From Idiomarina rhizosphaerae (lineage in GTDB: Bacteria; Pseudomonadota; Gammaproteobacteria; Enterobacterales; Alteromonadaceae): 64,000 bases of DNA. Made by a program: the position numbers and the translations under genes. The notes under the pieces were generated by a model. That model worked only from the letters and a program-made list of their open reading frames with translations. It was not told where the DNA came from and did not search any database. Of the stretch, positions 6,555 through 25,542 are shown in pieces; within the stretch, counting starts at the first letter, position 1, and every line of letters starts with the position of its first letter. The stretch is taken from positions 186,001-250,000 of the forward strand of contig NZ_JAMZDE010000001.1 of assembly GCF_024159085.1 (NCBI RefSeq). The letters run 5' to 3'.

Positions 6555-6574
6555 TACTTTTTTCAGGAGGTTAC

Positions 6575-7747: not shown

Positions 7748-7761
7748 TAGCGAGGCTTACC

Positions 7762-9948: not shown

Positions 9949-10946
9949 AACAAACTGCCGTTATCGTCTGCCCCGGTCGTGGTGGTTACAACAAACCAGA
10001 ATTAGGCTCTATTACTGAACGCCATTTGCCAGAGCAAAGCGAGCTCATCAATCAATTAGATAAAACCCGCGAAAACGAAGGTTTCATCAGCGTTTCGGAA
10101 CTCGACCAGAAAAGTAAGTTCGATCACCGTTTGCATTTAAAGCCGGAGAACTCTGCAGCCTTAATTTTCGCGGCCGGTTACGCCGACTTTAAAGCCGTTG
10201 ACCCGGAGCAGTATGACATAGTGGCAGTGACCGGAAATTCTATGGGCTGGTATACTGCCCTCGCCTGTGCCGGTGTATGGAAGCCCGAGCAAGCAATGTC
10301 TATTGTCACCGATATGGCGAAGCGAACTGCCACGGCCGAAGGTGCACAACTTATTTACCCAGTTATGAACGAGCAATGGCAACCGGATAAAGCTCGTGAG
10401 CAGGCTGTTAGCCAGTTACTGGTTCAATACGCCGGTGAACTATTTTTGTCCATACGTTACGGCGGGTACGTTCTGCTGGCAGGAACTCAGAGTGCTGTTA
10501 CCGCTGCCAGTAAAGTCCTGGAGCCGGTTGATAATCGCTTTCCTATGATTTTACCCGGCCATGCGGCATTTCATTCGCCATTAATGAAAGAGGCGTCTGA
10601 TCAAGCTCTCGCTGTGTGGGACAGCAGCCATTTCAAACAACCCGAACTGCCACTCATAGACGGCCGTGGTGTTATTTGGGAGCCGCCCGGCTGCCATTTA
10701 GACGCTTTGCAACGTTACACCTTTGGGCATCAGGTAACCGAATATTACGACTACACTAAAGCCATTACCGTTGCCTTAAGGGAGTTTGCGCCGGATAAGC
10801 TATTGTTGCTGGGGCCGGGAAACAGCCTGGGGGGCGCCACCGGACAAAGCCTGGTGGCAACTAACTGGCGAAACCTTTCCAGTAAAGATGGCTTTACCCA
10901 ACGGCAGGAAAGCGAAGAAGCCCCGGTTATTAGCCTGGGGCTGTAA
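9945..10946 (+). CDS. FabD-like acyltransferase, divergent
   Basis: Resembles malonyl-CoA:ACP transacylase. A nucleophile elbow GNSMGW sits where FabD has GHSLG, and PGHAAFHSPLM carries the likely catalytic histidine. LLLGPGNSLGG lies near the end. The N-terminus (VIVCPGRGGYNKPE) replaces the usual FPGQGSQ, and the elbow lacks the histidine, so activity and substrate are uncertain. It overlaps the fused E1 gene by ATGA, implying a linked role in acyl-CoA metabolism rather than routine fatty acid synthesis; this is inferred. It ends 5 bp from a convergent chemoreceptor gene. Confidence 0.6.
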   Translation: MKQTAVIVCPGRGGYNKPELGSITERHLPEQSELINQLDKTRENEGFISVSELDQKSKFDHRLHLKPENSAALIFAAGYADFKAVDPEQYDIVAVTGNSMGWYTALACAGVWKPEQAMSIVTDMAKRTATAEGAQLIYPVMNEQWQPDKAREQAVSQLLVQYAGELFLSIRYGGYVLLAGTQSAVTAASKVLEPVDNRFPMILPGHAAFHSPLMKEASDQALAVWDSSHFKQPELPLIDGRGVIWEPPGCHLDALQRYTFGHQVTEYYDYTKAITVALREFAPDKLLLLGPGNSLGGATGQSLVATNWRNLSSKDGFTQRQESEEAPVISLGL

Positions 10947-10951
10947 ATGGA

Positions 10952-13387
10952 CTAGTGAATACCTTTGCTGTTCAGGTGTCCTTTGTACGCCATATCGCTC
11001 TTCATAATGTGATTCATTAGCCAGGCTTTAACAAAGTCCAGTAACTCATCAATCACATCTTCATGGTCATCAACCCGGTGCTTAAAGCGCATGACATCCT
11101 GCACTAAGTCGCGATGCTTAAGCTTGTGGTTTTCTAAGTCCGGATAGCCATTACGCTCCATTAACAATTCTTCGTAGTTAAAGTGCGTTGCCGTGTAGTT
11201 AATTAACGAGTCCACCAGGCGTTGCAGCGCATGCTGATCACCATCACGCAGCTTCAGTCGGTACAGCTCATTGGCAATGTAAATTAAGCGCTGGTGTTGA
11301 CGGTTAATTTCTTCAATGCCGACATCCAGTTTCGGCGACCATTCAATGAGTACGTCCTGCTCTGAAAGACGCCGCTCTATAACGTCTTTTTCAATGTAAT
11401 AGCGGTCACCCAGAGACTTAATCTCGCCGCCTAAAGTCGTTAGCTGGGCAGAGCTTTCTAAGGCTTCTTGCGAGCGTTCATCAACAATTCGTGCACTTTC
11501 AGAAAGTGAATTAATGTTTTCCTGAATATTTATGGTTACAGCAGACTGTTCTTCCGTTGCGGAGGCTATCTGAATATTTAAATCGTTAATGACACCAACA
11601 TTTTCGACAATGTCGGATAATGAACTTGCAGCCCGGTTCGCTTGCTCGACATTTTCGCCCGCCAGGGTTTTATTGCGCTCCATGGTTTGCACTGCATTGT
11701 TCGTGTTGGTCTCCAGCCGACCGATGACACCTTGTATTTCGCCAGTGGAAGCCTGTACTCGCTGTGCTAATTGTCTGACTTCGTCAGCAACAACTGCAAA
11801 GCCCCGACCCGACTCACCGGCTCTGGCGGCTTCAATAGCAGCATTCAGCGCCAGCAAATTGGTCTGATCGGCAATGTCATTAATGGTCAATAATATTTTC
11901 GAGATAGACTGACTATCTTCAGATAAAGTTTTTATAACACGCTGAGATTCCGACACTTCTTGCTCGAGTCTCTGGATGGCAGTCACCATGGTATGAACAA
12001 CCTGCTGCCCATTTTTGGCAGATATCAGGGTATTATCAGCTTCTGTTGCGGCCTTCTGAGTTGATTCTGACACTTCACTAATCGCTGACGTCATTTGCTC
12101 GACTGCCGCAGCCGCGCTTTGCATTTGCGAAGCCTGAGCTCTTGCCCGCTCGGCCAGCTCTTTAATTGCCTGATAATTCCCGTTACCCAGCCTGTCCATA
12201 CCGTCGCTCGACTTACGTATAGCATCCACTGAGTAACTGGTCTCGATAGCGACCGAGTTCAGATAATGAGTTATTCTCGACAGCTCATCATGACCCTCTG
12301 TCGAACTCAAACTATTTAGGTCGCCATTTGCCAACTGTTTAGCCATTTTGATATTGGCAGATACAGCCCTGTAAATTCCCAAATATAAGCTGGTAAATAA
12401 CAACAACTGCAATAACAACACACCGACAATCAAAGCCGCGTTGGTCCAAATCACCGTATCTAATTTTGTCAGGCGCTGTTCAAGTCTTGAGTGATAAGCC
12501 GGAATAACGCTGTCGTAAAAGGCAAATAACGCCCCTGTCGCGGCAGTTCCCTCACGAAAGAAATCACTGGCCGACATATTTCGTTCCATTAGCTTGTTCG
12601 AAGCGGTTTCGCTAAATAATCTTAACTGCTGTTCGGCTGCCTTAGCCTGCATTAACAAGCCCTGGTCGTTAACTTCTTCGGATAAACTCGCGACAACGTC
12701 CACAAAATCGGAAACCTGATTTTCCAGCACGTAGCTTAAAATGGTGACATCCTGTTGTAATTCGGGGCTTTCCTTTCCGCTTAACCACTGAGCTCCCAAC
12801 CCCCTCAAGCGACCTCCCTGCTCAACTAACTGCGGCAGTTCCTCAACGGAAAGACGCGCTAAAAACAGGCTTGGTAAATCATTTTCCAGCAGTTGTTGGG
12901 AATTTTTGCCAAGCAGCTTCAACGCATTTTGAACCTTTTCCAAAAGCTCAGTGTGCTGATGAAATGTGTCCGTTGAACCGCTTAAGCTCTGCCAGTTACG
13001 GCGCAGCTCCAGCAATAATGACTCGGGCAGCAAATAACTTTCGCCTAGTTTACTTTGAAGATCATCCAGAGCACTAAAATGGCGGTTAATGGCTTGCACT
13101 GAACGGTTTATTTCACTGGAAAACTCACGTTTTTGAGCCTCGCTCCCGGTCATCCCCCGGTGCATAGCGATATGCTCTAAAAGCCCTCTTAATTCAGGCC
13201 AGTATTGAGCGGCTTCATGCTTTTGTTCAACCTGATGGCTTTTTTCCAGTGAGTCATTAACCATCAACGAACTCAGTACAATAACCGGAATAAAGAGTAA
13301 AAAACCAATTAAGCTAAACTTTCGTCTAAAACTCAGTAAATTAAATAACTTCTGGACAGGGCGAGTTAACCAATCGAGCCACTTCAT
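10952..13387 (-). CDS. Methyl-accepting chemoreceptor with C-terminal bacteriohemerythrin domain
   Basis: Membrane chemoreceptor of 811 residues. A helix near 20-40, a long helical sensor region with [10 protein letters not shown] (somewhat like the NIT nitrate-sensing fold), a second helix near 335, HAMP, then the signalling hairpin with [15 protein letters not shown]. The last 125 or so residues form a hemerythrin domain with the di-iron ligand pattern: H in NRQH, HFNYEE, HKLKH and HIMKSD. It therefore probably senses oxygen or redox state inside the cell in addition to a periplasmic cue. The ATG at 13387 has GGAG upstream and precedes the first helix. The NIT resemblance is weak. Confidence 0.88.
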
Positions 13388-13504
13388 AACCACTCCACTA
13401 CAGGCAAAATCTACAACCACTAAAGGTCTGTTCTGCTATTCATCGGCATTAGTTGCACATAATACAGGGTTGTTGGTGGCCAAGTGGCTTTTGCTTGATC
13501 GTGA

Positions 13505-14215
13505 TCAATAAACTAGTAAACTTTCTAATGTCATCTCGGTCATTTCGTTAAAAGCGGTCTGTCTTTCATTAGCCGACAATCCATTGCCCGTTCTTATTTC
13601 ATCAGAAACCGTCATAACGGCTAAAGCCTGTTTCTTATGAATAGCCGCTACCGCATAAAGAGCAGCTGCTTCCATATCTAACGCCAGAACATTCATTGCC
13701 TCGAGCCGAGACTCCAGTTTTTTGTCTGGATGGTAGAAACTGTCAGTAGAAAATACATTGCCAACGGCTACACGCTGGTTCTTCTTCTGACAATAACCAA
13801 CGAACTCACTTAACAGTTTGTAATCTGCAATTGCTGCAAAGTCATAACCGCCAAACAACTTTTGGTTCATTGACGAGTCAGTACAGGCTCCCTGAGCAAC
13901 GACCAGATCACGCAAATTAAGGTTTGCTGATACGGCACCGCAACTGCCTACCCGCACTAAGCGCTCAACACCGAAATGCTGAAACAACTCTTGTGCGTAG
14001 AGTGCACAAGACGGCATCCCCATACCTGAACCCATCACCGACACGGGCGTACCGCGAAATTGCCCGGTAAATGCCAGCATATTTCGGGTATCGCTTATGA
14101 GTTCAGCACTGTCCAGGTGTGTTTCAGCAATATGTTTTGCCCTTAAAGGGTCGCCAGGAAACAAGCAAAGCTCGGCAAAATCACCGGCCTTAGCCGAAAT
14201 ATGAGGAGTGGTCAT
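13505..14215 (-). CDS. deoD: Purine nucleoside phosphorylase DeoD
   Basis: Hexameric-type phosphorylase that splits purine (deoxy)nucleosides with phosphate for salvage. Seen: FPGDPLRAKHIAE (phosphate loop), GSGMGMPSCALYAQEL, RVGSCGAV, the nucleoside-binding DMEAAALYAVA, and TVSDEIRTG containing the catalytic Asp. Length 236 is standard. It stands alone, divergent from the interrupted exporter gene at 14313. Confidence 0.95.
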   Translation of the reverse strand: MTTPHISAKAGDFAELCLFPGDPLRAKHIAETHLDSAELISDTRNMLAFTGQFRGTPVSVMGSGMGMPSCALYAQELFQHFGVERLVRVGSCGAVSANLNLRDLVVAQGACTDSSMNQKLFGGYDFAAIADYKLLSEFVGYCQKKNQRVAVGNVFSTDSFYHPDKKLESRLEAMNVLALDMEAAALYAVAAIHKKQALAVMTVSDEIRTGNGLSANERQTAFNEMTEMTLESLLVY

Positions 14216-14312
14216 AGGATTCGCCTTGTTATTTTTTCATCAAGATAGATGACAACTCAGAAATAATCGACTATATTTCGTTTTATTCTAAATTAGATTA
14301 TTATGAACAATC

Positions 14313-14501
14313 ATGATCAATATCATTATGAAATTGGCGACAGGGTACCGCAGAAGCGTCTTCTGGATGTTGACGCTGATCACTATTGCTGTTGCTGCCT
14401 TCATCCCCTCTATTACCATTGATACCGATCCGGAGAACATGCTGCCGGACGATAACCCGCAGCGTGTTTTCCACAATGAGGTCAAAGAAACTTTTGCTAT
14501 G
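14313..14501 (+). pseudogene. 5' fragment of RND/MMPL exporter, cut by transposon
   Basis: Codes for the first 63 residues of an RND-superfamily exporter: one membrane helix (about residues 13-33) and the start of the first periplasmic loop (ITIDTDPENMLPDDNPQRVFHNEVKETF, in pieces as written). The frame then runs 17 codons into the transposon and stops at 14552. The rest of the gene is at 23209-25542. Removing the insert and one copy of GCTATG rejoins both parts in frame (FAM-HDM), giving an 840-residue protein. Confidence 0.9.
14496..14501. repeat. Target site duplication, left copy (GCTATG)
   Basis: GCTATG lies at the left transposon junction and again at 23203-23208. One copy is needed to restore the reading frame of the exporter gene, which is what a 6-bp target duplication predicts. 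Confidence 0.88.
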
Positions 14502-14518
14502 TGGAAATTACCATCCAA

Positions 14519-14594
14519 ATGGCACACCTCGAACCCTGAAATGGCACAGTAAAGGATTTTAAGGTGGAACACGAAAACCGTGAACGTGGAACAA
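14519..14594 (+). repeat. Left-end array of four transposase-site motifs
   Basis: ATGGCACAC (14519), ATGGCACAG (14541), GTGGAACAC (14564) and GTGGAACAA (14586) recur at steps of 22, 23 and 22 bp, about two helical turns, so all would face the same side of the DNA. IS21 relatives are known to carry multiple repeated sequences in their ends. The inner pair with its spacer (14564-14594) matches the right end at 27 of 31 positions. Confidence 0.85.
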
Positions 14595-14678
14595 GCACCC
14601 TCTGACAGAAAAAGCGATCTTCAGACCCGGTTATTGTCTATAATCTCTAAACAGCAATAGCAACCAGAGCCGGTGTTT

Positions 14679-14978
14679 ATGCCTTACTGCCAAACTAACT
14701 TTCGAACTGTGCCGCTAGAGCGAGTTGAAGAGGTACTGTCTTCATTGACCAAAGAGAGCTTTGTTGGAGGACAATTCGCTTATCAGCTAGACGACGGCTC
14801 TTACTCCATTGATGCCGGGGAAAACGATATTCGGGCTATCTATGATGAAGAGAATGCAGCCATAAAATTCTTTTGTCGCTACCAACGGGATATGAACTTT
14901 TACGATAAGAAACTGATGGCTTTTGCCACCAAGCATGGTATTGACACGAAACCTTGCACCGTCTCATCTGAATATTGA
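14679..14978 (+). CDS. Hypothetical 99-aa protein in transposon
   Basis: Not recognised. Short soluble acidic protein with no signal peptide or membrane segment. It begins MPYCQTNFRTVPLERVEEVL and has a conserved-looking middle (GGQFAYQLDDGSYSIDAGEN). It is the first gene inside the left end and is read towards the interior, unlike the other cargo. A GTG 6 bp upstream is an alternative start. It could be a cargo gene or a decayed remnant. Confidence 0.5.
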   Translation: MPYCQTNFRTVPLERVEEVLSSLTKESFVGGQFAYQLDDGSYSIDAGENDIRAIYDEENAAIKFFCRYQRDMNFYDKKLMAFATKHGIDTKPCTVSSEY

Positions 14979-15122
14979 ACAGCTACGACTTGTCTTGATG
15001 TGGCCAAAAAAACAAAGCCCCGCGAAGATGGGGTCTTGGATTAAAATCAAAGCAATGTAGTGGCAAATAAAATGACTATGAATAAAGTCGAACTTTATTA
15101 TCCCCCCATTACCGAATCACGT

Positions 15123-15350
15123 TTATCCGTGACTCTTTCTATAATCAAAAATTCCAGAGACAGCTAAAAATAAAGTATATACCCCTCCTAAAAAACCAAG
15201 TGTAAGGGTAGACCAATATAAAGGCTCATTTTCGAAGATTCTAATACCTCTGTAAGAAATATGGCCTGTATCCCAACTATGATAAGTAAGGGCTAAGAGT
15301 ACAATGGCAACGATTAAATATAGCCAATTAAGTTTCTTAGATTTATTCAA
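15123..15350 (-). CDS. Small two-helix membrane protein, transposon cargo
   Basis: Seventy-five residues with two hydrophobic helices (LYLIVAIVLLALTY and LTLGFLGGVYTLFLAVSG) and a basic start. The start is TTG with GAGGAA seven bases upstream. It overlaps the end of an older reading frame at 15343-15459. Function is unknown. AT-rich, like the two other small membrane genes between it and the Rhs tip, which suggests a group of immunity-type genes. Confidence 0.55.
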   Translation of the reverse strand: MNKSKKLNWLYLIVAIVLLALTYHSWDTGHISYRGIRIFENEPLYWSTLTLGFLGGVYTLFLAVSGIFDYRKSHG

Positions 15351-15459
15351 GTCTATCTTCCTCTATTATTAATTTTACTGCATCTTCTGCCACACTAAAT
15401 ATTTTTTCTGCGCCTTTACTAAGTGCAGTCGCCGCTAAAATTTTTCCATTAAATAAATA
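15343..15459 (-). other. Coding remnant, about 38 codons without a start
   Basis: An open frame reads NGKILAATALSKGAEKIF and ends EEDRLE, overlapping the TTG start of the gene at 15350. There is no ATG, GTG or TTG in the frame, and a stop lies directly upstream. It sits one base out of frame with the end of the gene at 15449-15811, so it may be the frameshifted tail of that gene or the tail of a lost gene. Confidence 0.3.
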
Positions 15460-15811
15460 TTATATAGATACATACACATAGGCCAAAAAAGAATGAGAGG
15501 AACCTCACTTTATGATGCTTCCCTTCAGGATCATAACAAATCTTTCCGAGGTGATTATGCATATCTTTTTTCCAAATATAAGCGTATACCCAGTGTAATC
15601 CTATTAAATAAACTAGAGAACTAACCAGCCATTCGGACAGAGTATTTTTATTAGATAAATACCCACCGCACACAAAAAATGTAATGGCTAGGATAAAAAA
15701 TGATAGTTTTATCCAAGTGCTTGAGCGAAGCATGACGTCAACTCTTATCCTTAACATAATCCACATAGCGGCAGTTGAATCAACAATTACTCCTGCCTGA
15801 GCCTTACTCAT
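15449..15811 (-). CDS. Membrane protein of unknown function, transposon cargo
   Basis: Protein of 120 residues with three hydrophobic stretches (about 35-50, 62-80 and the last 15). AGGA lies nine bases before the ATG. The C-terminus ends in a hydrophobic run (CVCIYIIFI) and may be cut short by a one-base shift, because an adjoining frame continues for 38 codons (see 15343-15459). Position downstream of an Rhs tip suggests a possible immunity protein. No family recognised. Confidence 0.5.
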   Translation of the reverse strand: MSKAQAGVIVDSTAAMWIMLRIRVDVMLRSSTWIKLSFFILAITFFVCGGYLSNKNTLSEWLVSSLVYLIGLHWVYAYIWKKDMHNHLGKICYDPEGKHHKVRFLSFFFGLCVCIYIIFI

Positions 15812-15890
15812 TTGCTTAGTTCCTTTAAATACAACTGTTGTTTGGTGCCACTATAATATGGTTAGCCTATTTCCTTGGAATGGAAATAGA

Positions 15891-16232
15891 CTAGCTATAT
15901 TTCCCTATTACAATAGGTATAATAAAAGATATAGTGAATAGAAATAATCCTGAGATCAAAAGAAACCTACAAATACCTGCATATTTATACAATTCCAAAT
16001 CACTCGTTCTCTTATACTTGCCAAATATAATAAATTTCATAAATCTACTTGAACTAGAAATACTATTGTTTTTTACAAAGTTAATTTCCCCAAGACTTTT
16101 ATAAAGTTCAGGGTGCCTCAAAGCTAGAATACTTGTAACTTTCTTGAACAAAATAAAATAAGCTATCGTAATAGGGATTAGCCCTAAAGAAACTACCACC
16201 CAGATTGATTTTATATTTTCTATTGTAAACAT
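15891..16232 (-). CDS. Candidate immunity protein for Rhs tip, membrane
   Basis: Protein of 113 residues with two membrane helices, at about 10-30 (WVVVSLGLIPITIAYFILF) and 88-110 (FLLISGLFLFTISFIIPIV), and a basic middle. It starts six bases after the stop of the Rhs tip gene. In polymorphic toxin loci that position is normally taken by the cognate immunity gene, so the role is inferred from place only. AT-rich compared with the host genes. Confidence 0.5.
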   Translation of the reverse strand: MFTIENIKSIWVVVSLGLIPITIAYFILFKKVTSILALRHPELYKSLGEINFVKNNSISSSSRFMKFIIFGKYKRTSDLELYKYAGICRFLLISGLFLFTISFIIPIVIGKYS

Positions 16233-16238
16233 TACTTT

Positions 16239-16928
16239 TTACTCACTTTCAAAAACTCTCGTTTTGTCACCAGCAACTTTAGAGCTAACGCTCGCACCAG
16301 CAGCAATACCAGCGTGTACAGTTACTCCTATCGAAGGTGTCCATTGAATAGTAACACCTCCACCCAAACCAGCTCCGCCCATGACAGTAGTTGAACCTAT
16401 AGGCCCAGAAGCGCTGGCATCTGGCTTAACAAGTACAAAATTTACTGTACCGCTAGCTCTAGTACCATAAGCTGTACCTGTTAAGGCTCCTGAAAGTTCA
16501 ACACCTTCGCCATTAAATGTTCCTGAGTCTACGGTTACGCCTGCTTTTACACCTAAACCAACTCCCGCTGTTCCGTCTACTGAAACAGTCGTCCTACTCA
16601 CTAGTTCTCGTCCCGTGGTTTCAATTCCATCGTTAACAGAATCGATGCCGTTATTAACAACTCGATTTCCTTCATCAACCCCATCCAGACCAAGCATATT
16701 TGCCACAACTTCACCCACGTCAGGTATCTCAATATCTACTTCTGGACTCATACCTGTAGGATCAGTAAATCGAAATGGATTGTTATTCGCATAAGCATAC
16801 CGATTAAAGCTATGCACATCACGGAAACCAATTGGGTCGTTGCTGTAAAACCGCCCAATCACTGGATCGTAGTATCGTGCCTGCATATAAATTAGTACGA
16901 TGTAGGAACCAGAATTTATATAGGACAC
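16239..16928 (-). CDS. Orphan Rhs core end with C-terminal variable domain
   Basis: The first 50 or so residues hold the end of an Rhs repeat core: YMQARYYDPVIGRFYSNDP, then RYAYANNNPFRFTDPTG. The remaining residues are a glycine- and alanine-rich variable domain ending in KVAGDKTRVFESE. A full Rhs protein has well over a thousand residues before this point; here the frame opens only a few codons upstream with a GTG, so this is a displaced tip or truncated copy. The tip could be a toxin domain, but I recognise no catalytic motif. Without a secretion partner it may be a silent cassette. Confidence 0.65.
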   Translation of the reverse strand: MSYINSGSYIVLIYMQARYYDPVIGRFYSNDPIGFRDVHSFNRYAYANNNPFRFTDPTGMSPEVDIEIPDVGEVVANMLGLDGVDEGNRVVNNGIDSVNDGIETTGRELVSRTTVSVDGTAGVGLGVKAGVTVDSGTFNGEGVELSGALTGTAYGTRASGTVNFVLVKPDASASGPIGSTTVMGGAGLGGGVTIQWTPSIGVTVHAGIAAGASVSSKVAGDKTRVFESE

Positions 16929-16957
16929 CCCTCATAATCTGACCCGTCCTAAGGTAT

Positions 16958-17398
16958 CTAGGCGGCAACTTCCCAGTGATCTTCTATTTCCTCTAGGCGA
17001 ATTTCTTTTGCGGCTTCCTCTGCTTCTGTATCCGCCAATAGATCAAGAAAGTAGCTCACGGGATTATTTTTTTCTTGGCTTTCCATGTACAGTGTTCTTA
17101 AAGCCGCGTCTGTAGTTCGTGGAATTTTTGTCTTGCCTTTTTCATAACGGGCAATTGTCTGCTCATCCACACCAAAACGTGTGCCAAGCATTTTCTGAGA
17201 AATATTCATCTCAATACGCAAAAACTTAAATTCTTCATGCGTAAGTGGTTTTCTGCTGTCCACAACAGCCTGTCCTATCGCTCTATGCAGCCCATTCATA
17301 TCATCAATGCTTGTATATTCTTCACCATCGATGTGTTCAACGGTAAAACCATTTTTGAGATATATATTTGATAAACCGCTTTCAATGTAATGGTACAT
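16958..17398 (-). CDS. HTH antitoxin-like protein
   Basis: DNA-binding protein of 146 residues. The middle carries a helix-turn-helix of the Xre/MqsA type: EFKFLRIEMNISQKMLGTRF, then FGVDEQTIARYEKGKTKIP. The C-terminus is acidic. It follows the DUF4258 gene by nine bases in the same direction, the layout of a toxin-first type II pair. It probably represses its own operon through the palindromes at 17756-17787. Confidence 0.65.
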   Translation of the reverse strand: MYHYIESGLSNIYLKNGFTVEHIDGEEYTSIDDMNGLHRAIGQAVVDSRKPLTHEEFKFLRIEMNISQKMLGTRFGVDEQTIARYEKGKTKIPRTTDAALRTLYMESQEKNNPVSYFLDLLADTEAEEAAKEIRLEEIEDHWEVAA

Positions 17399-17407
17399 AC
17401 CAACCTC

Positions 17408-17749
17408 TTAATCGAGCCATACAGTTACCAGAACTGACATAGGACTGTCATGATGATTCTTAAGTGCAACAGTCAATTCAATAACCTTGCCTGCTGCTAA
17501 CCCTTTCAAGTTAAATTTCCAGTCTCCGTTCACTTCTGGATACGGGCCTTCTCTGAATACTGAATGCTTACTCTTAAGTAAGGTGATTATTTGTCCAGCA
17601 GTAACCCCTCGCTCCCTCATGCGTTCCTTGACGTGATTGCTCCATCGAATCCTGTGAGTATAGTTCGTTGCCAGATCATTCATTATCTTTCTGGCTGTTT
17701 CCTCCGACAGAGGAAATTCGTTTACGCCTTTAGGGTTGTTTTTATTCAT
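17408..17749 (-). CDS. DUF4258-type toxin candidate
   Basis: Basic protein of 113 residues with the DUF4258 pattern: a helix with WSNHVKERMRERGVTAGQI followed by a small beta sheet (GDWKFNLKGLAAGKVIELTVAL). This fold is related to RelE-like and HicA-like RNA-targeting toxins, but activity is unproven here. ATG at 17749 is preceded by AGG. It pairs with the HTH gene directly downstream. Confidence 0.6.
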   Translation of the reverse strand: MNKNNPKGVNEFPLSEETARKIMNDLATNYTHRIRWSNHVKERMRERGVTAGQIITLLKSKHSVFREGPYPEVNGDWKFNLKGLAAGKVIELTVALKNHHDSPMSVLVTVWLD

Positions 17750-17755
17750 CAAAAA

Positions 17756-17787
17756 CCTATCAACTTGATACCTATTATTTTGATAGG
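17756..17787. promoter_or_regulatory. Inverted-repeat operator of TA-like operon
   Basis: CCTATCAA (17756) and TTGATAGG (17780) form a perfect inverted pair spaced by 16 bp, and TATCAACTTGATA (17758-17770) is itself a palindrome. The cluster sits just upstream of the DUF4258 start, where autoregulatory antitoxins bind. Confidence 0.55.
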
Positions 17788-17821
17788 TAGAGTGCGCAAT
17801 GTCAACTATTGTTTTAAATCA

Positions 17822-18775
17822 TCAAAACAACCCGCTACCGCCTCGCGCTGAGGGATGAGTGTCCTGATAGATTTGTGAAAGTTTCTTACGGCTTACATGC
17901 GTGTACAATTGGGTTGTCAGAATACTTGCATGGCCAAGCATCTCTTGAATATGCCTTAAATCTGCACCATTATCCAGCATAGTTGTCGCTGTGTTATGGC
18001 GGTACAGGTGACAAGCTCCGGTGCGGTCAAACCCGGCAAGTTTCACATATTGAGAAGCCATGTCTGACAGCTTTCCCGGTATGTAGCGCTTCCCATTGTT
18101 CGCCAGAAATAACGCTTTCCCGGAGCCAATAAAAGCAAACATGGGGCGGATTTTTCCGATGTAGAACGCGACCCATTCACAGCCTCGCTGACTGATTGGC
18201 ACTAGGCGCTCTTTCTTTCCCTTCCCATTAACACGAACGAGCTTTGCTGAGAAATCAATATCGTCAACATTGAGCTTAACAAGCTCACCGCGCCGTATGC
18301 CTGTCGCAAAAAAGGTTTCGAGTATTGCCCTGTCGCGCAGTCCTTTAACGCCGAACAGCAGCGGTTGCTCAAGTATGACTTCGACTTCCTCCTCGGTGTA
18401 GAGTGCTTTGGGGATCTGCTCACCTTTTGATGGAAGCTCAATATTCTGAAGGGGATTAGCCGATAGTAACCCTTTAATGTACAGGTACTTCACAAAGGTT
18501 TTCACGAACGTCAGAAGATTACGCTTCTGTGCTGCGCACAGGGGTTTATTGTCCAATGGCTTTCGATAAGCATTCAGATACGCCGCATAGCCATCCATCA
18601 GATCTAAATTGATTTGGTCTATGCGAGTAACGTTACGCTCCAAGCACCAGAGAAAAAACTTTTTAAGCCCGCTGCGCTTGCCTCTGATGGTATCTGAACT
18701 TTGCCCCTTGGCGAGACAAAGCTCAAAATAGTACTTGGCACAACGCCAGATACGCTTAGTGGAAGGCTTGACCAT
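17822..18775 (-). CDS. Tyrosine recombinase of the transposon
   Basis: Site-specific recombinase of 317 residues. A SAM-like N-terminal DNA-binding domain is followed by the catalytic domain with Arg161 (ATGIRRGELV), a basic beta hairpin (VNGKGKKERLVPI), His256-x-x-Arg259 (CHLYRHNTATTML), His282 (MLGHASI) and nucleophile Tyr291 (LYTHV). All catalytic residues are present. The frame is open further upstream, but the ATG at 18775 gives the normal domain start. It overlaps the preceding gene by 20 bp. It most likely resolves cointegrates made by IstA/IstB, by analogy with resolvases of Tn3- and Tn5053-type elements; integration is the other option. Confidence 0.88.
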   Translation of the reverse strand: MVKPSTKRIWRCAKYYFELCLAKGQSSDTIRGKRSGLKKFFLWCLERNVTRIDQINLDLMDGYAAYLNAYRKPLDNKPLCAAQKRNLLTFVKTFVKYLYIKGLLSANPLQNIELPSKGEQIPKALYTEEEVEVILEQPLLFGVKGLRDRAILETFFATGIRRGELVKLNVDDIDFSAKLVRVNGKGKKERLVPISQRGCEWVAFYIGKIRPMFAFIGSGKALFLANNGKRYIPGKLSDMASQYVKLAGFDRTGACHLYRHNTATTMLDNGADLRHIQEMLGHASILTTQLYTHVSRKKLSQIYQDTHPSARGGSGLF

Positions 18776-19244
18776 GAATAAGCTCTTTGGCAAGTGATAG
18801 CCCGACGTCCACAAAAGCGTTCGGCTCAGGCTGTCGCCAATAGACAACCAGTTTATCAGAGGTACGAATCCTTCCGACACGGTAACCAACCGCAGAAATG
18901 ACACTTCCGTTTTCATGATACGTCGGAAACACAACACAGCCCCTGAACAGTTCGTGTCCCGTTGCGCGCACTAATCCAGCGCGTTGAAGGCTTCCTCTTA
19001 TCGCGGCTCCCTCATAGGTTCTTGCCTTCGGGATATGCTTGCCCATGGTACGATCACAATATCCAATCGATAAATTTTCCTTCACATCGTTGTCGATAGC
19101 GCAGCTTTTAGCGACGAATTGCTGTGCCAGCTCGCTTTGCTGATAACGTTGGCGGTAATAATCGAATGCTTGCTGAATATTCAACTCGTCAAGATTGAGT
19201 TGACCCAGTACGTTCAAGTACGGGTTGGTAGATGACATATTCAT
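18756..19244 (-). CDS. Primase-core-like protein lacking TOPRIM motifs
   Basis: Protein of 162 residues resembling the region of DnaG before the TOPRIM domain: a helical section (AFDYYRQRYQQSELAQQFV), SIGYCDRTMGKHIPK in place of the primase GYAP motif, and a GLVRATGHELFRGCVVFP stretch followed by NGSVISAVGYRVGRI. No TOPRIM metal-binding glutamate or DxD motif follows, and no CHC2 zinc motif precedes. Its ATG overlaps the istB stop (ATGA), and it overlaps the recombinase gene by 20 bp. A role in transposition or replication of the element is inferred; it could instead be a DNA-binding accessory. Confidence 0.6.
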   Translation of the reverse strand: MNMSSTNPYLNVLGQLNLDELNIQQAFDYYRQRYQQSELAQQFVAKSCAIDNDVKENLSIGYCDRTMGKHIPKARTYEGAAIRGSLQRAGLVRATGHELFRGCVVFPTYHENGSVISAVGYRVGRIRTSDKLVVYWRQPEPNAFVDVGLSLAKELIHGQAFH

Positions 19245-19993
19245 TTCGCGCTCCCCCGAAGTCCCAATAACTTCCTGATCGACTCTCCTTTTAGAACAAT
19301 CTTATGAGCACTATGGACAATCCGATCAAGCGTAGAATCTGCAACGGTTGCATCACCAAAGGCATCATGCCACTCAACAATTGCAAATTGCGATGTGATC
19401 AACAGGGACGAGTTTTGGTCACGCTTCTCAATCAACTCAAAAAGTGAATGGCGCTCGGTCACTGATAAAGGTGCGGTTCCCCAATCATCAATGATAAGAA
19501 GTGGTGCTTTCTCGACTTTCCTTCTGAACGTTGCGGCTCGCTTATCTGTGTCTGCGGCAGCAAGGTTAAGGATCAGCGTTTTAAAACGGCAGTGAATAGC
19601 AGCAATGCCACTTGATATAACAGCATTACCGAAAGCGCTTGCCAAGGACGTTTTACCTGTTCCTGTCGGCCCTGTGATAATGATATGACGGTGATTTTTC
19701 AGCCACTCAAGTTCAGCCAGCTCATTGACAACAGCAGGCTTTAGAGAAGGCATAAGGGAGTAGTCAATATCGCCGATGGAAGCAGCGGGAAAACGTATTG
19801 CGGCTTGCTTCATCATCCTTGCGGTACGCGCATTTGATGTGACATTAAGCTGCTCAACAACTAGCTCATCCAATCGCTGCAAAAAGCCTTTGTCCTCATA
19901 ATTGTCGTTGCTGAACTGCTGCTTAAGAGCGCTGACCATACCGTGGAGCTTTAACTCTGACAGATTAGACGTTATCTTATTTTTAAGCATCAT
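19241..19993 (-). CDS. istB: IstB-type AAA+ transposition ATPase
   Basis: Helper ATPase of IS21-type transposition that binds DNA and stimulates the transposase. N-terminal helical domain (ELKLHGMVSALKQQF), Walker A GPTGTGKT at about 108-115, Walker B LLIIDDWG at about 165-172, sensor segment LLITSQF and the family ending (LDRIVHSAHKIVLKGESIRK). The ATG doublet at 19990-19993 follows GGAGATAAC and overlaps the istA stop. Confidence 0.92.
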   Translation of the reverse strand: MMLKNKITSNLSELKLHGMVSALKQQFSNDNYEDKGFLQRLDELVVEQLNVTSNARTARMMKQAAIRFPAASIGDIDYSLMPSLKPAVVNELAELEWLKNHRHIIITGPTGTGKTSLASAFGNAVISSGIAAIHCRFKTLILNLAAADTDKRAATFRRKVEKAPLLIIDDWGTAPLSVTERHSLFELIEKRDQNSSLLITSQFAIVEWHDAFGDATVADSTLDRIVHSAHKIVLKGESIRKLLGLRGSAK

Positions 19994-21533
19994 AGTTATC
20001 TCCGTAGTAGTCTCTACCGCGAATGTTGCCGTGCAATTCAACACGAGACGGAAGATTTTCGAAGCCACCCTCGGCCTTTTGAGCGCTAATAATCAATTCG
20101 ATTTCACTGGGCTTATCCATGTCATGACGAAGCGCATATTTACACGCTTGGTTCACAAGGTTACTCCCTTGTTTTTGAACCAAATTCATTAATGCGCGAC
20201 AGCGTTTAGCGATGGGCCGGGACTGCGGGTTCTTTGTCTGCGAGTACCAGCTCTCAACAATTGCCTGAACTTGTTCACCAGTGTCCTCAGCCCACTTAAT
20301 ATTGGACTCTTTGTCACACATACTGAAATCGGCCAGATGCTCGGCTGACATGTGCTCAGGAATGGTCGTAGCCCTGCCTTTGTTATTGCTGAGTTGGTGC
20401 TTGTAAACAAAACGGTTTTGGTGATAGATGTCGATTTCATTTTGAGTCACGACGATATCAACGGACTCTCCAGCAAGCGTATATGGTACGGAGTAGTCAT
20501 GGTTCCGATATTCAAGATGGTAATCCGGTTTGACGCGTTTAACTTGGCGATCAGTTACCATACGGTAAGGGGTGGCTGGGCAAGGGCGCAACGCACCCCG
20601 CTCATTTTCCTCAAAGAGATCGTTGCGTGAAATATCAAACCCTTGGAAGCACTCATTATTGAGCTTCTCGACTTCTTTTAGAATGTACTGATTGATCTCA
20701 TTTATGTCGAAAAACGTCATGTTCAACATCGGCACTAAAACACGCTGTGTAATAAACTTGACGCCATTTTCTACCAAGGACTTATCTTGGGGATGACCGA
20801 CGCGACAGGTGTTGATCAAACAGCCGTAGTGCTCAGCCCAGAACATCACGTTATCAACGAGATTAGCTAAAAGACCCGGCTCGCTGACTAGGGCTTTTGC
20901 GTTATCCATTGTCACCGTCTCAGTACAACCGTCGAAGTAAGTGACGGCTTTTGTCATACCGTCAATCCAATGAACTGTCTTTTCTCCTTCTGTTGCGAAA
21001 GCAAATAATTTCTTTGACGCACCTAACGTGGCGACAAAGATTTTCACCCATACTTTCTCGCCACCGACCTTGTAAAATACCTTTGTGCCTGCATAGTCGA
21101 TATACATATGTTCACCAGCCACATGATGCTGCTTCATAACTATCTTGACGCGCTTCATGACTTTATTGAGCATCCGAAAGTAGTGGGTCTTGCTCATAGC
21201 CGTTGCCGGGTCGATAGCCCGGTATTCAAGGTAAAGAACAGTTCTGCTTTTACGTTTGCCTCGCGCTTTGCTTAACTCGCGTAGCGCTTCGTTGTAGTCT
21301 GGCTCACGTTTACAAGATGTCCGATGGTCGGAGTACAAAAGCACTTCGACAACCTCTTTATTGCTTAGCTGCTCAAGTAACAGATGATCGATCTTGAGTT
21401 TTTGACAACGCTTGTTAAGACGGTGCGTTGCTGAAGGCGATGCCCCAGCGATAGCCGCCTGCTCTCTGACAGTGATGTCGGGCTTCACGAACTTAGCCCT
21501 CACGACGGCTCGGATAGTGCTGACATTCATCAT
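19983..21533 (-). CDS. istA: IstA-type DDE transposase
   Basis: IS21-family transposase of 516 residues. N-terminal helix-turn-helix regions (DITVREQAAIAGASPSATHR), then an RNase H-like catalytic core with Asp146 (MYIDYAGTKVF), Asp210 (TVTMDNAKALV) and Glu255 (HPQDKSLVENGVKF). The C-terminal beta domain (YHLEYRNHDYSVPYTLAGE) is typical of the family. AGAGGA lies before the ATG pair at 21530-21533. First gene of the four-gene operon. Confidence 0.93.
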   Translation of the reverse strand: MMNVSTIRAVVRAKFVKPDITVREQAAIAGASPSATHRLNKRCQKLKIDHLLLEQLSNKEVVEVLLYSDHRTSCKREPDYNEALRELSKARGKRKSRTVLYLEYRAIDPATAMSKTHYFRMLNKVMKRVKIVMKQHHVAGEHMYIDYAGTKVFYKVGGEKVWVKIFVATLGASKKLFAFATEGEKTVHWIDGMTKAVTYFDGCTETVTMDNAKALVSEPGLLANLVDNVMFWAEHYGCLINTCRVGHPQDKSLVENGVKFITQRVLVPMLNMTFFDINEINQYILKEVEKLNNECFQGFDISRNDLFEENERGALRPCPATPYRMVTDRQVKRVKPDYHLEYRNHDYSVPYTLAGESVDIVVTQNEIDIYHQNRFVYKHQLSNNKGRATTIPEHMSAEHLADFSMCDKESNIKWAEDTGEQVQAIVESWYSQTKNPQSRPIAKRCRALMNLVQKQGSNLVNQACKYALRHDMDKPSEIELIISAQKAEGGFENLPSRVELHGNIRGRDYYGDNYDA

Positions 21534-21635
21534 TTTGATGTCCTCTAAATAGGTAAAAAGAGGCGCAGGCGACCAAAGCTTTCTTTTCAACAGCAGAAAA
21601 CTTGACAAATGTCACATCAAGAACAATGATTCAGT

Positions 21636-21653
21636 ATCGAGTTTCGATTCGAT
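21636..21653. repeat. Short inverted repeat upstream of istA
   Basis: ATCGA (21636) and TCGAT (21649) flank an eight-base centre in the istA leader. The size would suit either an operator or a recombinase crossover site, but nothing else supports a choice. Confidence 0.25.
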
Positions 21654-21662
21654 GCTCAACCA

Positions 21663-21697
21663 AAAAGCCCTTTAGAGTTGCCGCTCTGAGGGCTTTT
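21663..21697 (-). terminator. Terminator between the small regulator gene and istA
   Basis: AAAAGCCCT and AGGGCTTTT pair as stem ends, with AGAG and CTCT inside, and the minus-strand transcript continues in a run of T. It would stop leftward transcription from the gene at 21745-22002 before istA, so istA needs its own promoter in 21534-21660. Confidence 0.7.
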
Positions 21698-21744
21698 GTT
21701 CTATTTACGCCAATAAAATCTTTTTAGTTAGCGAATTACATTGC

Positions 21745-22002
21745 TCAGTCCTCTCTCGCGCAGGCTTGGCTAGCCAAAAATTTACAGACATCTCTCACCA
21801 GCGCAAATCGTCCTCTTCTGTTAGGAAGCTCAAAAATATGCACGGGCAACGTCTGTCTTTGAATGGCTTGTTTCACCGCAGCCACGCTTCGGTAGTTCAA
21901 AGCTCGTTGTAATTGCTCAATGGTGAGAATTGGTGAGCCGTATAACTTCAACAAATCTTGCTCAAGCTGCATGGCCAAAAATTCTCGTTCTTCGTCACTC
22001 AA
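21745..22002 (-). CDS. Small winged-helix-like regulator of transposon
   Basis: Protein of 85 residues with the look of an AlpA/excisionase-type DNA-binding protein: SPILTIEQLQRALNYRSVAA, then VKQAIQRQTLPVHIFELP and a closing helix VRDVCKFLASQA. The start is TTG, with GGAGGA nine bases upstream; the only ATG in the open frame is ten codons in. It is divergent from the 294-residue gene. It could direct recombination by the tyrosine recombinase or repress the shared promoter region; both are inferred. Confidence 0.55.
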   Translation of the reverse strand: MSDEEREFLAMQLEQDLLKLYGSPILTIEQLQRALNYRSVAAVKQAIQRQTLPVHIFELPNRRGRFALVRDVCKFLASQACARED

Positions 22003-22178
22003 TGTTTGTCATCCTCCATATCAAACTAACGGTGACAATTAGCCTATACTCAAAATTTGAAATAAACATTGTCGATTTATTAACCAGATTCGTCCTGATG
22101 ACTCAATGAGCGGAGGTACTTAATATGCTGTATTCATTGAAAATTCGTTTAAGATTCTTCAAATAGAAAGGTCAGTGA

Positions 22179-23063
22179 ATGAATAATACTTCATCTATTG
22201 AACTCAATAATTTCTGGAGTTGGGAGGCCTTTTACCCACTGACTGAGGACAGGCGCACGGAGATAAAAAGTCAATATTTAGCGTTGTCCCCAGTAATGCG
22301 ATCGGTTGCAGGACAGATTGCTGTTCAGAGGCACCTCGAAGAAAATAACCATCCTTCAATGGCGCGTTTCATCGAATCATTGGACTACGATTCAATGGAT
22401 ACTACCCAACTGAAATGTCCAAACTTTTGGTACAAGTTATTTGCTGGCAGAGCAATGACACAGTCGAATACCATCGACTTATTCTTTGATGGTGTGAATT
22501 ATCCAACCGCCAGTATCTTAATGCACCCCCTTTGGTCTTTGATCGACCATCGAGTTCCGATAGAGTCATCGCTGAAGCAGTTTGCAATTCAATTCGGGGG
22601 AAAATTATTTAGAAAGCTATGTAGCTGGCACTGCTTAGATGAAATACCGCTCAGCGCTTTAAAGCAATCGTACCCTAGTCAAAGGCAGAAACAGTTTGAG
22701 GCGAGATCATTCGACTCGCTCAACGCACTGATTTTTATCACTCTCAACCAAATCCGAGAGTGCAAACATTTAAGGCCAACGACAGCCGAGCGATACGCTT
22801 ATGCACTTTTTCTATTTTTGTTTGGCTATAAATACCGAACCCGGAAAAAGCTGGATATGGGAATAATGCTCAACGAACTGCTGACACCATCTTCTTCGTC
22901 GGGTGATAGAGACCGATTCGAGCAAAGATTATCCTCAGATCAAGGGAGAATTATAGAGATCGGGCTTAGTTTACCCCCTACAGTTAGCGACGAAGCAGAA
23001 AGTATTGTTTGTACCAAAACACTTCATTGGATTTTGGCTAGTAACCATCCTTGCTTCAAATAA
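22179..23063 (+). CDS. Unrecognised 294-aa transposon protein
   Basis: No family recognised. Soluble, with several aromatic and cysteine residues (KCPNFWYKLFAGRAM, KLCSWHCLDEIP) but no clear zinc motif or catalytic signature. A basic helical part near residue 205-225 (RYAYALFLFLFGYKYRTRKK) could bind DNA. It is the last gene before the right end and reads outward. Position near the end suggests an accessory transposition protein, such as a target selector, but cargo is equally possible. Confidence 0.6.
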   Translation: MNNTSSIELNNFWSWEAFYPLTEDRRTEIKSQYLALSPVMRSVAGQIAVQRHLEENNHPSMARFIESLDYDSMDTTQLKCPNFWYKLFAGRAMTQSNTIDLFFDGVNYPTASILMHPLWSLIDHRVPIESSLKQFAIQFGGKLFRKLCSWHCLDEIPLSALKQSYPSQRQKQFEARSFDSLNALIFITLNQIRECKHLRPTTAERYAYALFLFLFGYKYRTRKKLDMGIMLNELLTPSSSSGDRDRFEQRLSSDQGRIIEIGLSLPPTVSDEAESIVCTKTLHWILASNHPCFK

Positions 23064-23109
23064 AGTTGTAAATTTCGACTGACAAATATTTCACTCACCC
23101 AAATAGTTT

Positions 23110-23186
23110 TTGTTCCACTTTGATGGTTTTCGTGTTCCATCAAAATGTCACCAAGCGTTTCCCCTAAAGGTGCTAACGTGTTCCTT
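23110..23186 (-). repeat. Right-end array of four transposase-site motifs
   Basis: Read on the minus strand from the tip: AAGGAACAC (23186), GGGGAAACG (23164), ATGGAACAC (23140) and GTGGAACAA (23118), at steps of 22, 24 and 22 bp. Offsets from the tip equal those of the left end within one base. The outer two copies are weaker. Confidence 0.8.
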
Positions 23187-23202
23187 TCCGTGGGAATATC
23201 TA

Positions 23203-23208
23203 GCTATG
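23203..23208. repeat. Target site duplication, right copy (GCTATG)
   Basis: Second copy of the duplicated hexamer, in frame with the exporter codons Ala-Met that continue as His-Asp-Met. Confidence 0.88.
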
Positions 23209-25542
23209 CATGACATGATTGTCGTTGGCGTAGTCAATGAGAACACCGTCTACAACCAAAAGACATTAACCGACCTGCACACCATTTCGAATTACGCGGA
23301 GTCTCTCGAAGGCGTTATCAGTGACGACCTGATGTCACTGGCGAATGTCGATAATATTACTCAAAAACAACCCGGCACCATTCGCTTTGAATGGATGATG
23401 AAGCAACCACCGGAAAATGATGCTGAAGCCCGCTACATTCAGCAGCAAGTTGAAGACCTGCCGCTGCTTTATAACACCATTGTTTCTGGCGATGGGAAGG
23501 CTGCAGCTATTTATGTACCCATTGAAAGCAAAGACGAGAGCTACGCACTGGCGGAGCAGCTGCGTAGCAAAATAAGTACGCTGGACGGCAGCGATGAATG
23601 GCATATTACCGGTTTGCCAGTTGCTGAAGACCAGTTTGGGTATGAAATGTTTGTGCAAATGGGCATTTCGGCTCCATTAGCAGCCGCGGTTATTTTCGCT
23701 CTGCTTTGGTTCTTCTTCCGCAATGTACGCTTCATAAGTGCAGCAATGATAGCCGCGATGTCTACTGTGCTTATTACCATGGGTGCATTAATTGCCCTGG
23801 GTTTCACCGTACACATTATGTCGTCGATGATCGCTATTTTCCTAATGCCGATTGCGGTGGTCGACTCGGTACATATTATGTCGGAGTTCTCCGACCGATA
23901 CCGCGAAAAAGGCAATGCAAAGGACACGATAAAAGACGTGCTGGGGCACTTGTTTACGCCCATGCTATTTACCTCGGTTACATCGACCATTGGCTTTTAC
24001 TCATTAATGCTAACACCGATTCCGCCGGTGCAGGTGTTCGGTGCCTTCGTTGGTTCAGGTATTTTACTGGCGTTTTTAATTACTGTGATTTTCGTGCCGG
24101 CCTACCTATGCGCATTAAAACCATCGACTCTGGAAAGCTTTGTTCAAATGACTCATGAGGAGCACAAAGATAGCTGGTTACAGAAAATCGGCACTCTGGC
24201 GGCCCGCCACGCCAAACTTTGGATAGCTTTTTTCCTCGCCGTTTTGACTTTTGCCTGGTTTGGTATCCAGCAAATTAACATTAACGACAACCCAGTGCGT
24301 TGGTTTAAGCCTGATCACGAAGTCCGTATTGCTGACGAAGTACTGAATGACCACTTTGCCGGCACATACAACGCTTACCTTGTATTTGAAAGCACCTTAG
24401 ATGCCACTGAAAAAGCGCGCGCAGCGGTTCGTGACGCCCTGAATAACGACGCATTGTCAGCAGAATCGCGCGATGCTTTAAGCGCTCTACTTGAGCAAGA
24501 ACAAGAGCAAATGAACTTTAACCAGTGGATTATCGCTATTGACGATCTGCTCTTCAGCGTAGGTTCCGACCAATTAGAGCCTTTAAAAGGCTTAATGACA
24601 AAGTTGGAACAGCTGAATAGCGCCAGCAAAGCGTTCCAGAGTCCGGAATTACTGGCTTACATGAGCGAGATGCAAGCGTACTTGCAAACCACCGGTTTGG
24701 TGGGCAAGTCAAACAGCCTGTCCGACGTGGTTAAGACGGTTAACCGTGAACTACGCTCCGGTGAAAAGAAAGATTACAAGCTGCCGGACAATGCCAACGG
24801 CGTTGCACAAATCCTGCTGCAGTATCAGTCGTCGCACCGTCCGCAGGATCTCTGGCACTTTGTTACGCCGGACTACAAACGCAGCCTAATGTGGTTGCAA
24901 CTGACCAGCGGTGACAACCAGCACGTGACTAAGGTTGTGAACGCCGTTGATAGCTATATTCAGGATAACCCTCTGCCTGCAAACATTAAAATGGACTGGG
25001 CCGGCAAAGCTTACCTGAACGTCGTTTGGCAGGAAGCTATGGTCGAAGGCATGCTAGACAGCTTAATCAGCGCCTTTGTGGTGGTGTTTATTATGATGGT
25101 ATTGCTGTTCCGCTCGGTGGTCTTCGGGGTGCTGGCTATGCTACCGCTGAGTCTGACCATTGCCTTTATTTATGGTCTTATTGGCTGGGTCGGTAAAGAC
25201 TACGACATGCCTATTGCCGTGCTGTCATCGCTGACGCTTGGGCTATCGGTGGACTTTGCTATTCACTTCATTGAGCGCGCCCGCGCTACCTTCAAGCAAA
25301 CCGGTAACTGGAAAGACACTCTGGTGGTTATGTTTGATGAGCCCGCCCGGGCCATTTCCCGCAATGCCATTGTTATTGCTATTGGATTTACGCCACTGCT
25401 GCTCGCACCTCTGGTGCCCTACATTACGGTCGGCGTGTTCTTAGCCAGTATAATGGCGATATCCGCCATTGTGACACTTATTATGCTCCCGGCGGTGATG
25501 ACCCTATTTAGCCGTCTTATATTCCGTGGAGGTCAATCATGA
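23209..25542 (+). pseudogene. 3' fragment of RND/MMPL exporter, cut by transposon
   Basis: Codes for 777 residues of an RND-superfamily exporter: first periplasmic domain, two blocks of five to six membrane helices (about SAPLAAAVIFALLWFF onward and MLDSLISAFVVVFIMM onward) and a second periplasmic domain. It lacks the first helix, which is at 14313-14501. The frame opens 33 codons upstream inside the transposon, and an ATG at 23206 or 23218 could start a protein, but without the first helix topology would be wrong. The next gene, a LolA-like protein, overlaps its stop (ATGA). Confidence 0.88.

Follow-up and report, generated by a model that had tools for sequence, protein, structure and literature searches.

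The 64,000-nucleotide stretch of Idiomarina rhizosphaerae DNA analyzed here (assembly GCF_024159085.1, contig NZ_JAMZDE010000001.1, positions 186,001 to 250,000; hereinafter, the window) contains an element of 8,701 bp, at window positions 14502-23202, that splits a host gene of the RND/MMPL type. Between its ends, the element encodes IstA and IstB (IstAB), a DDE transposase and its AAA+ helper, a tyrosine recombinase (TR), a small DnaG-related protein (DnaGN), and cargo that includes an orphan Rhs core with a C-terminal tip. Comparison of this element with its relatives indicates that it most likely forms a single circle with two exits, such that IstAB would insert the circle with a target-site duplication and TR would integrate it into the core of an rhs gene and swap the tip of the encoded protein. 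The features that can be read directly from the sequences are the insertion with its duplication and empty sites, the permutation of the gene order between copies, the abutted transposon ends, the fixed attachment (att) boundary and the linkage to rhs genes. A preliminary description of the window as an IS21-related transposon stands insofar as the element is a non-standard IS21 with a duplication; it is incomplete because the same DNA also occurs in permuted form inside an rhs locus, and it missed the orphan Rhs core and tip that turned out to be central.

Insertion in the window and permuted copies

The window copy is flanked on both sides by the 6-bp repeat GCTATG, and the comparison with related strains that the preliminary description had called for bears out its claim of an exact gene interruption; the coordinates given there are correct to the base. 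Among the 40 genomes searched, 18 of which are other members of the same genus, nine of these 18 carry the uninterrupted RND/MMPL gene as one open frame of 842-845 aa. In all nine empty sites (L198-L206), the two window flanks align adjacent to each other with an overlap of exactly 6 bp and nothing in between, the pattern left by a clean insertion that duplicated 6 bp. Aligned without gaps, the outermost 100 bp on the left and right agree at 59 of 100 positions; the strongest block is a 30-bp inverted repeat (90%) that starts 63 bp inside each end (14565-14594 and 23110-23139), and the phased end motifs reported earlier thus hold. The end motif is present in nine of the ten loci compared (not L041), and 17 of the 18 ends of those nine loci begin with TG.

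These features, namely terminal repeats in at least two copies per end, ends finishing in CA-3' (though the right end of the window copy is TA) and a short target duplication (6 bp, in a single insertion), are those of the IS21 family. The same TA is found in L278 and at both junctions of L279, and the possibility that a CA to TA change inactivated the right end of the window copy was accordingly dropped. Both transposition proteins score just above the curated IS21 family cut-offs (IstA, 161.2 bits for NF033546 with a cut-off of 160; IstB, 208.7 bits for NF038214 with a cut-off of 200), and the window genome contains one copy of istA. The two-gene plan of IS21 is not retained, given that DnaGN, TR, the small protein p85 and the cargo also lie between the ends. 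The element is therefore a derivative of IS21 rather than a standard member, as had been proposed from the sequence alone, and the core of istA, istB, a primase-core-like gene and a tyrosine recombinase named in that proposal is upheld by family matches and by a match to the DnaG fold.

In another genome of the same genus (G250, locus L279), an element 97% identical to that of the window over 6.2 kb, and 80-93% identical at the ends and the terminal gene p101, lies within an rhs locus. The order there begins with a long rhs open reading frame (ORF; 1520 aa of it within the DNA fetched) that includes its tip, followed by a small gene, p101, and the left and right transposon ends, which abut with a 2-bp spacer; it continues with another IS21, p294, p85, istA, istB, DnaGN, TR, the same DUF4258/MqsA pair as in the window and the att boundary, after which comes an older orphan tip; beyond it there are more tips and a second abutted junction. 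A 7.6-kb contig of genome G256 (L278) also contains an abutted junction with a 2-bp spacer and homologues of the window ends. The window copy has the circular gene order of L279; its point of opening, however, is at the transposon ends, and it lies in the RND gene. No other single observation supports the putative two-exit circle as strongly as this permutation. The occurrence of the same DNA without duplications had been named beforehand as an outcome that would speak against a transposon; L279 comes close to it, yet extends the transposon reading instead of refuting it.

The window genome has an rhs locus of its own (L281, G000:C3:222000-241900), with a long rhs gene, orphan tips and a p101 homologue, and no module. 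Further module-less orphan tips in L279, and one of the orphan tips in L281, bear a similar element-side, att-like scar, and these tips are possibly remnants of elements that have come and gone. The other IS21-type element of L279, different from the one described here, occupies positions 5809-8052, between the right end and p294, as judged by eye.

Rhs linkage, abutted ends and the att boundary

The proposed search for the four-gene order in other genomes yielded dozens of loci. A first set, obtained by searches with DnaGN and TR, comprises 18 loci, namely the window element and 17 others, that all combine IstA/IstB, DnaGN and TR; the genes are contiguous in 17 of the 18, and the scrambled L039 (istA 7 kb away, truncated istB) was retained. 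A held-out set, for which predictions were fixed beforehand, consists of 29 new places identified via DnaGN alone in 395 genomes of the family and 369 of the class, defined as rows not previously fetched with an open frame shorter than 340 aa. Four of the 29 are duplicates or overlaps of earlier loci (L283, L290, L294 and L303, the last of which was nonetheless used in the boundary comparisons); IstA, IstB and TR are all encoded in 18 of the remaining 25, and the other seven places are outside the held-out 18 considered below. Within the window's genus, DnaGN was found in three of 19 genomes, including that of the window.

Rhs cores, called at a profile score of at least 22 bits within the fetched DNA, are present in 16/18 loci of the first set and 15/18 of the held-out set, compared with 0/25 ordinary IS21 loci of the same order and 1/80 viral TR loci (Fisher, 6e-10 and 5e-9). 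The loci without an Rhs core are L037, where the contig ends behind TR, L041, L284 (on a short contig), L285 and L306. It is scarcely credible, then, that the element is an ordinary IS21 transposon that picked up a recombinase and an rhs fragment by chance: although IstA and IstB do exceed the IS21 cut-offs, the gene order and the rhs linkage recur in dozens of loci and in none of the ordinary IS21 controls, and the held-out set contradicts this explanation. The linkage extends to relatives that lack IstAB and encode a primase, mostly of ~1000 aa, before TR (hereinafter, primase-type); these come from several phyla and have an Rhs core in 23 of 44 loci, several of the misses being on short contigs. 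TR loci without a DnaGN match have one in 9 of 33 cases.

Entry of a transposition circle into rhs via att would necessarily bring the IS21-type ends together within the integrated copy. In a palindrome scan, both arms begin with xTG in eight of ten type A palindromes, compared with 0/5, 0/75 and 2/60 in the controls. The palindrome score alone was rejected as a test for abutted ends because controls also reach at least 52 (IS21, 1/25; viral, 9/80; primase/TR, 8/72); it was replaced by CA-NN-TG scoring, devised after the pre-set palindrome test, in which 100-bp arms are compared with a threshold of at least 46. Junctions at this threshold are found in 9/17 first-set and 6/18 held-out loci and in 0/25, 3/80 and 1/72 controls (pooled, 15/35 versus 4/177; Fisher, 2e-10), whereas the stricter pre-set test (centred palindrome, both arms xTG, threshold 47) is passed by just 3/18 held-out loci. 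All the CA-NN-TG junctions sit 623-2003 bp upstream of istA, and their 2-bp spacer varies from copy to copy, as expected if it derives from earlier flanks. Three loci below the threshold, L033, L301 and L287, have TA at one end, like the window lineage. The full predicted order, rhs, junction, module and orphan, is seen in L028, L030, L032, L286, L305 and L279.

The boundary of the orphan is fixed. Behind TR, an orphan is found in 15 of the 18 held-out loci, and all 15 share one start in the profile: it immediately precedes the codons of [YH]xxxRxYDP, and the open frame extends no more than 24 residues upstream. Many Rhs-linked loci show the orphan tip alone; a longer upstream rhs frame together with a downstream orphan is present in 12 of 39. 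For these 12, an upstream rhs core (with at least 60 aa of frame before the core) was paired with a downstream orphan, the nearest two being compared; this systematic count over the 39 loci replaced hand-picked pairs, added L305 and L287, and re-paired L286 with the nearest rhs. To the right of the boundary, nine pairs are identical in 20/20 bp (L028, L030, L032, L040, L042, L286, L298, L279 and L303) and the L301 pair in 19/20, so that 10 of the 12 resemble site-specific attL/attR junctions with a shared core. To the left, identity is near chance in all 12 pairs (11-26 of 60). In contrast, a third rhs fragment in L030, away from the module, shows identity to the left as well as to the right of the boundary. 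On the element side, A-Y-T-A-R-T-T directly precedes the boundary, with weaker conservation to about -21 (30 attR sites, one per locus). Among the primase-type elements, L060 uses the same codon as the window, and the orphans of L078/L079/L082 and L055/L064 start, by eye, further into the core; in these elements, the boundary position appears to follow the TR lineage.

Several observations weigh against site-specific integration of a transposition circle. The L305 pair matches in 16/20 bp to the right of the boundary (the first 11 identical) and L287, with different core types on each side, in 10/20, so that identity at the boundary is not universal; a clear rhs/orphan pair is absent from the fetched stretch in 27 of the 39 loci; and L285 and L306 lack an Rhs core despite ample flanking DNA. 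No junction reaches the threshold in 20 of the 35 IstAB-type loci. The linear form with a duplication is seen in the window copy only: a scan of L022, L023, L029 and L038-L042, which covered none of the held-out loci, yielded no convincing linear ends with a duplication, the top scores in L039 reflecting a large inverted duplication and a weak pair in L042 a 5-bp match at chance level. Finally, a Campbell-type homologous crossover within the shared core would yield an identical product, since the boundary found in attR is the one that the element brings with it.

The last point leads to the alternative that IstAB circles enter rhs by homologous recombination via the shared core, with TR merely resolving cointegrates or dimers as in the Tn3 family. 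The shared core does flank the insertion on both sides and extends over ~150 bp or more in L032 and L040, and recombination of orphan tips with rhs by homology has been proposed, in Salmonella over 522 bp, in a passage of PMC3967940. However, the shared core spans just ~60 bp in L028, L030 and L042; A-Y-T-A-R-T-T is conserved despite unrelated tips and several core types; and elements without IstAB either share this codon (L060) or have a different fixed point, which seemingly tracks the TR lineage. Given these short tracts, the conserved element-side motif and the apparent lineage dependence of the boundary, we rate homologous recombination as rather unlikely, if with an appreciable chance of being correct; the inclusion of L305 and L287 in the systematic count slightly raised our estimate for it and slightly lowered that for the two-exit circle.

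Predicted mechanism and relationship to known elements

Under the two-exit scheme, IstA and IstB would recognize the IS21-type ends and form a circle by bringing them together across a 2-bp spacer; IS21 is named among the two-step circle-forming insertion sequences in the abstract of PMC3299598. Outside rhs, IstAB would insert the circle with a short duplication, as in the window copy. Alternatively, TR, probably aided by DnaGN, would recombine the att site of the circle with the matching core of a chromosomal rhs gene, which would open the circle at att. The rhs body would be retained and extended by the tip of the element and the gene after it, with the module and cargo next in line, and the displaced tip would end up as an orphan behind the new attR. 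DnaGN or p85 may help TR or set the direction. The assignment of an enzyme to each step, the reversibility of the reactions, the lack of target specificity of IstAB (one insertion was seen) and the functionality of the re-tipped Rhs proteins are predictions of this scheme.

The properties of TR and DnaGN are compatible with these roles. Five residues of TR that we take to be catalytic, R164, K188, R262, H285 and Y294, are invariant in all 13 aligned members, a catalytic set that is intact as in tyrosine-recombinase integrative elements; the H of the HxxR motif is N in some members. DnaGN consists of 162 aa and matches the Pfam domain DNAG_N with E=1e-3, below the curated cut-off; its AlphaFold model has a mean predicted local distance difference test score (pLDDT) of 78, and the best match among solved structures is the DnaG catalytic core (E=2e-6). 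It covers only the N-terminal part of the RNA-polymerase domain, without the Toprim part, and so should not prime alone; conceivably, it is a DNA-binding helper of TR. The Spearman coefficients are 0.63 for TR versus DnaGN (153 pairs), 0.66 for IstA versus IstB (136 pairs) and 0.25 for TR versus IstA; each of the first two pairs travels together, TR hardly with IstA. Among the window, L028, L029 and L037, TR identity is 81-93% and IstA identity just 24-50%. The TRs of IstAB-type loci form a single clade of 18 plus one shorter row, L063 (support 100/98, a rough bootstrap), which is nested in a group of 71 rows that includes 39 of the primase type; the TR/DnaGN pair thus belongs to a wider recombinase group that often adjoins Rhs genes.

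These data also bear on the possibility that TR and DnaGN guide IstAB to rhs as target selectors. Such a role is suggested by the adjacency of TR and IstAB in these loci and by TnsF, a TR-derived target selector that is described in PMC10293859 as acting for Tn6022 at comM. We consider it very improbable because rhs copies with a detectable junction have the transposon ends together internally and not at the rhs boundaries, the permuted L279 contradicts it, TR retains its catalytic residues, and primase-type elements without IstAB also adjoin rhs.

In the primase-type elements L052, L078/L079, L082, L055 and L064, the orphan Rhs starts ~33 bp further into the core, at a second att position. 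Tandem units of 6-9 kb consisting of primase and TR, often with an Rhs tip, and often near identical, occur in L036 (G014:C1), L060, L054, L070, L077 and L085, an arrangement that would be expected from repeated integration at one att site.

The element resembles the IS21 family in its IstA/IstB scores, repeated terminal motifs, mostly TG...CA ends, circle-type junction and short duplication, and differs in carrying DnaGN, TR, cargo and an att-like site within an Rhs core, and in having a second integrated form, for which this site is the point of opening. Tn3-family transposons of the TnpI type likewise combine a DDE transposase with a tyrosine recombinase, which resolves cointegrates at an internal site; here, the apparent site of TR is also the chromosomal target gene. 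According to statements in PMC10293859, an IS21 with a target selector had not been reported; the same source links tyrosine-recombinase-type proteins of Tsy and Tn6022/TnsF to insertion in a conserved protein gene, comM, with a module shared between element types, Tn6022 being Tn7-like with an inactive TR as selector and Tsy having no apparent Tn7 components. In contrast, the apparently active TR and the IS21 transposase of the present element would act at different sites of one circle, and the target would be restored with a new 3' part. No TnsA, TnsB, TnsC, TniQ or TnsF was detected among the Pfam and NCBIfam matches shown for 10 window proteins, and with the RND gene and rhs, not comM, as targets, the element belongs to none of the Tn7-like, TnsF or Tsy groups.

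The orphan Rhs-CT modules and polymorphic toxin cassettes discussed in PMC3482391 and PMC3967940 share with the element displaced tips and short core homology behind a full rhs gene. In the parts of these articles that address exchange, it is ascribed to general or homologous recombination, whereas the present loci point to a vector that moves by itself and has an att-like site at a fixed codon; XerC/D recombinases are noted beside some polyimmunity loci in PMC3482391, with a guessed role. GInts have a four-gene recombination module with tyrosine recombinases, cargo and a circle but encode three integrases and a small protein, and the abstract of PMC5385486 mentions no DDE transposase or rhs target. 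No description of an IS21-TR-Rhs element or of TR integration into an Rhs core was found in the open-licence literature, a search that left most subscription journals, bioRxiv and ISfinder outside its scope. The parts are known; two movement modes on one circle with toxin re-tipping fit no known kind that we could name.

How new C-terminal tips reach Rhs proteins and other polymorphic toxins is not settled; the usual explanation is recombination, either homologous or unspecified. We would give roughly even chances to the broader proposal that these elements are dedicated vectors of toxin-tip exchange that, along with their primase-TR relatives in several phyla, are a main source of orphan Rhs tips and Rhs polymorphism, with a circle that alternates between DDE transposition and TR integration and delivers a tip, a probable immunity gene and phage-defence cargo, and with the TR lineage setting the codon. 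With attP, attB, the circle junction and the enzymes all predicted, the element is a specific agent with which the tip-exchange question can be tested directly. If the scheme is correct, two unrelated recombination chemistries operate on one circle, weapons in the form of Rhs tips are joined with phage-defence cargo, and the target gene is made whole again with a different 3' end, as happens to tRNAs hit by tRNA-targeting elements. Insertion at one set codon of a conserved coding sequence, with the frame kept, may also make the recombinase useful as a tool.

Gene content and cargo

The gene order from the right end is p294, p85, istA, istB, DnaGN, TR, the DUF4258/MqsA-like pair, the orphan Rhs core and tip, small membrane-protein-like ORFs and p101; the coordinates are given in Table 1. 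The ORF behind the Rhs tip may serve as an immunity gene. Four of the 13 members of the p85 family weakly match PrtN, and the window copy has no such match. We rejected p294 as a conserved protein of the module, with identities of only 11-21% and no match in L037.

Table 1. Features of the element and its insertion site in the window
Feature	Position	Strand	Remark
RND/MMPL-type host gene, 5' part	14313..14501	+	interrupted by the element
Left target-site duplication, GCTATG	14496..14501	+	
Left transposon end (TGGAAATTACC...)	14502..14601	+	inner repeats 63 and 85 bp inside
p101, 101-aa ORF at left end	14673..14978	+	homologues adjoin both left-end/right-end junctions of L279 and the end of the host rhs array (L281)
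Small membrane-protein-like ORF directly after the Rhs tip	15891..16232	-	candidate immunity gene
Orphan Rhs core and C-terminal tip, cargo	16239..16928	-	TIGR03696, 3e-17
Putative attP, element-side arm (CGTACTAATT) then Rhs core (TATATGCAGGCACGATAC)	16864..16915	-	boundary between 16890 and 16889
MqsA-family-like antitoxin ORF	16958..17398	-	family match below curated cut-off
DUF4258 protein, putative toxin partner	17408..17752	-	cargo slot between TR and att
TR, XerC-like tyrosine recombinase	17822..18937	-	start likely near 18775
DnaGN, stand-alone N-terminal part of DnaG RNA-polymerase domain	18756..19244	-	
istB, AAA+ helper	19241..20068	-	
istA, DDE transposase	19983..21608	-	start likely near 21533
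p85, small putative DNA-binding protein	21745..22002	-	
p294, divergent ORF adjoining right end	22179..23063	+	no family, poorly conserved
Right transposon end (...GGGAATATCTA)	23103..23202	+	
Right target-site duplication, GCTATG	23203..23208	+	
RND/MMPL-type host gene, 3' part	23203..25542	+	interrupted by the element

PADLOC models match nine of ten proteins encoded behind TR in six loci. The cargo of L028 is a CBASS (cyclic oligonucleotide-based antiphage signaling system) set with cyclase, TRIP13 and NucC; L031 carries AbiEi/AbiEii, L023 carries PDC-S24, and L030 and L029 have weaker PADLOC matches. L022 carries IetS, with no orphan tip found behind it, and in L037 the start of a SIR2-like protein was recognized by eye. 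The DUF4258/MqsA pair is common to the window and L074.

Repeats were observed in several loci. In L029 (G006:C12:29000-48900), about 14 copies of ~100-bp repeats lie between small genes at ~2800-19600, on both sides of the module, which looks like an integron-type cassette array enclosing the element. In L028, 123-bp repeats (5077-5198 and 18423-18543), and in L030, a shared terminator-like hairpin (1684-1720, 3603-3631 and 14964-14998), directly follow the genes behind the tips and perhaps mark the far boundary of tip cassettes. Outside the element, the window contains a perfect 24-bp palindrome at 36731-36754.

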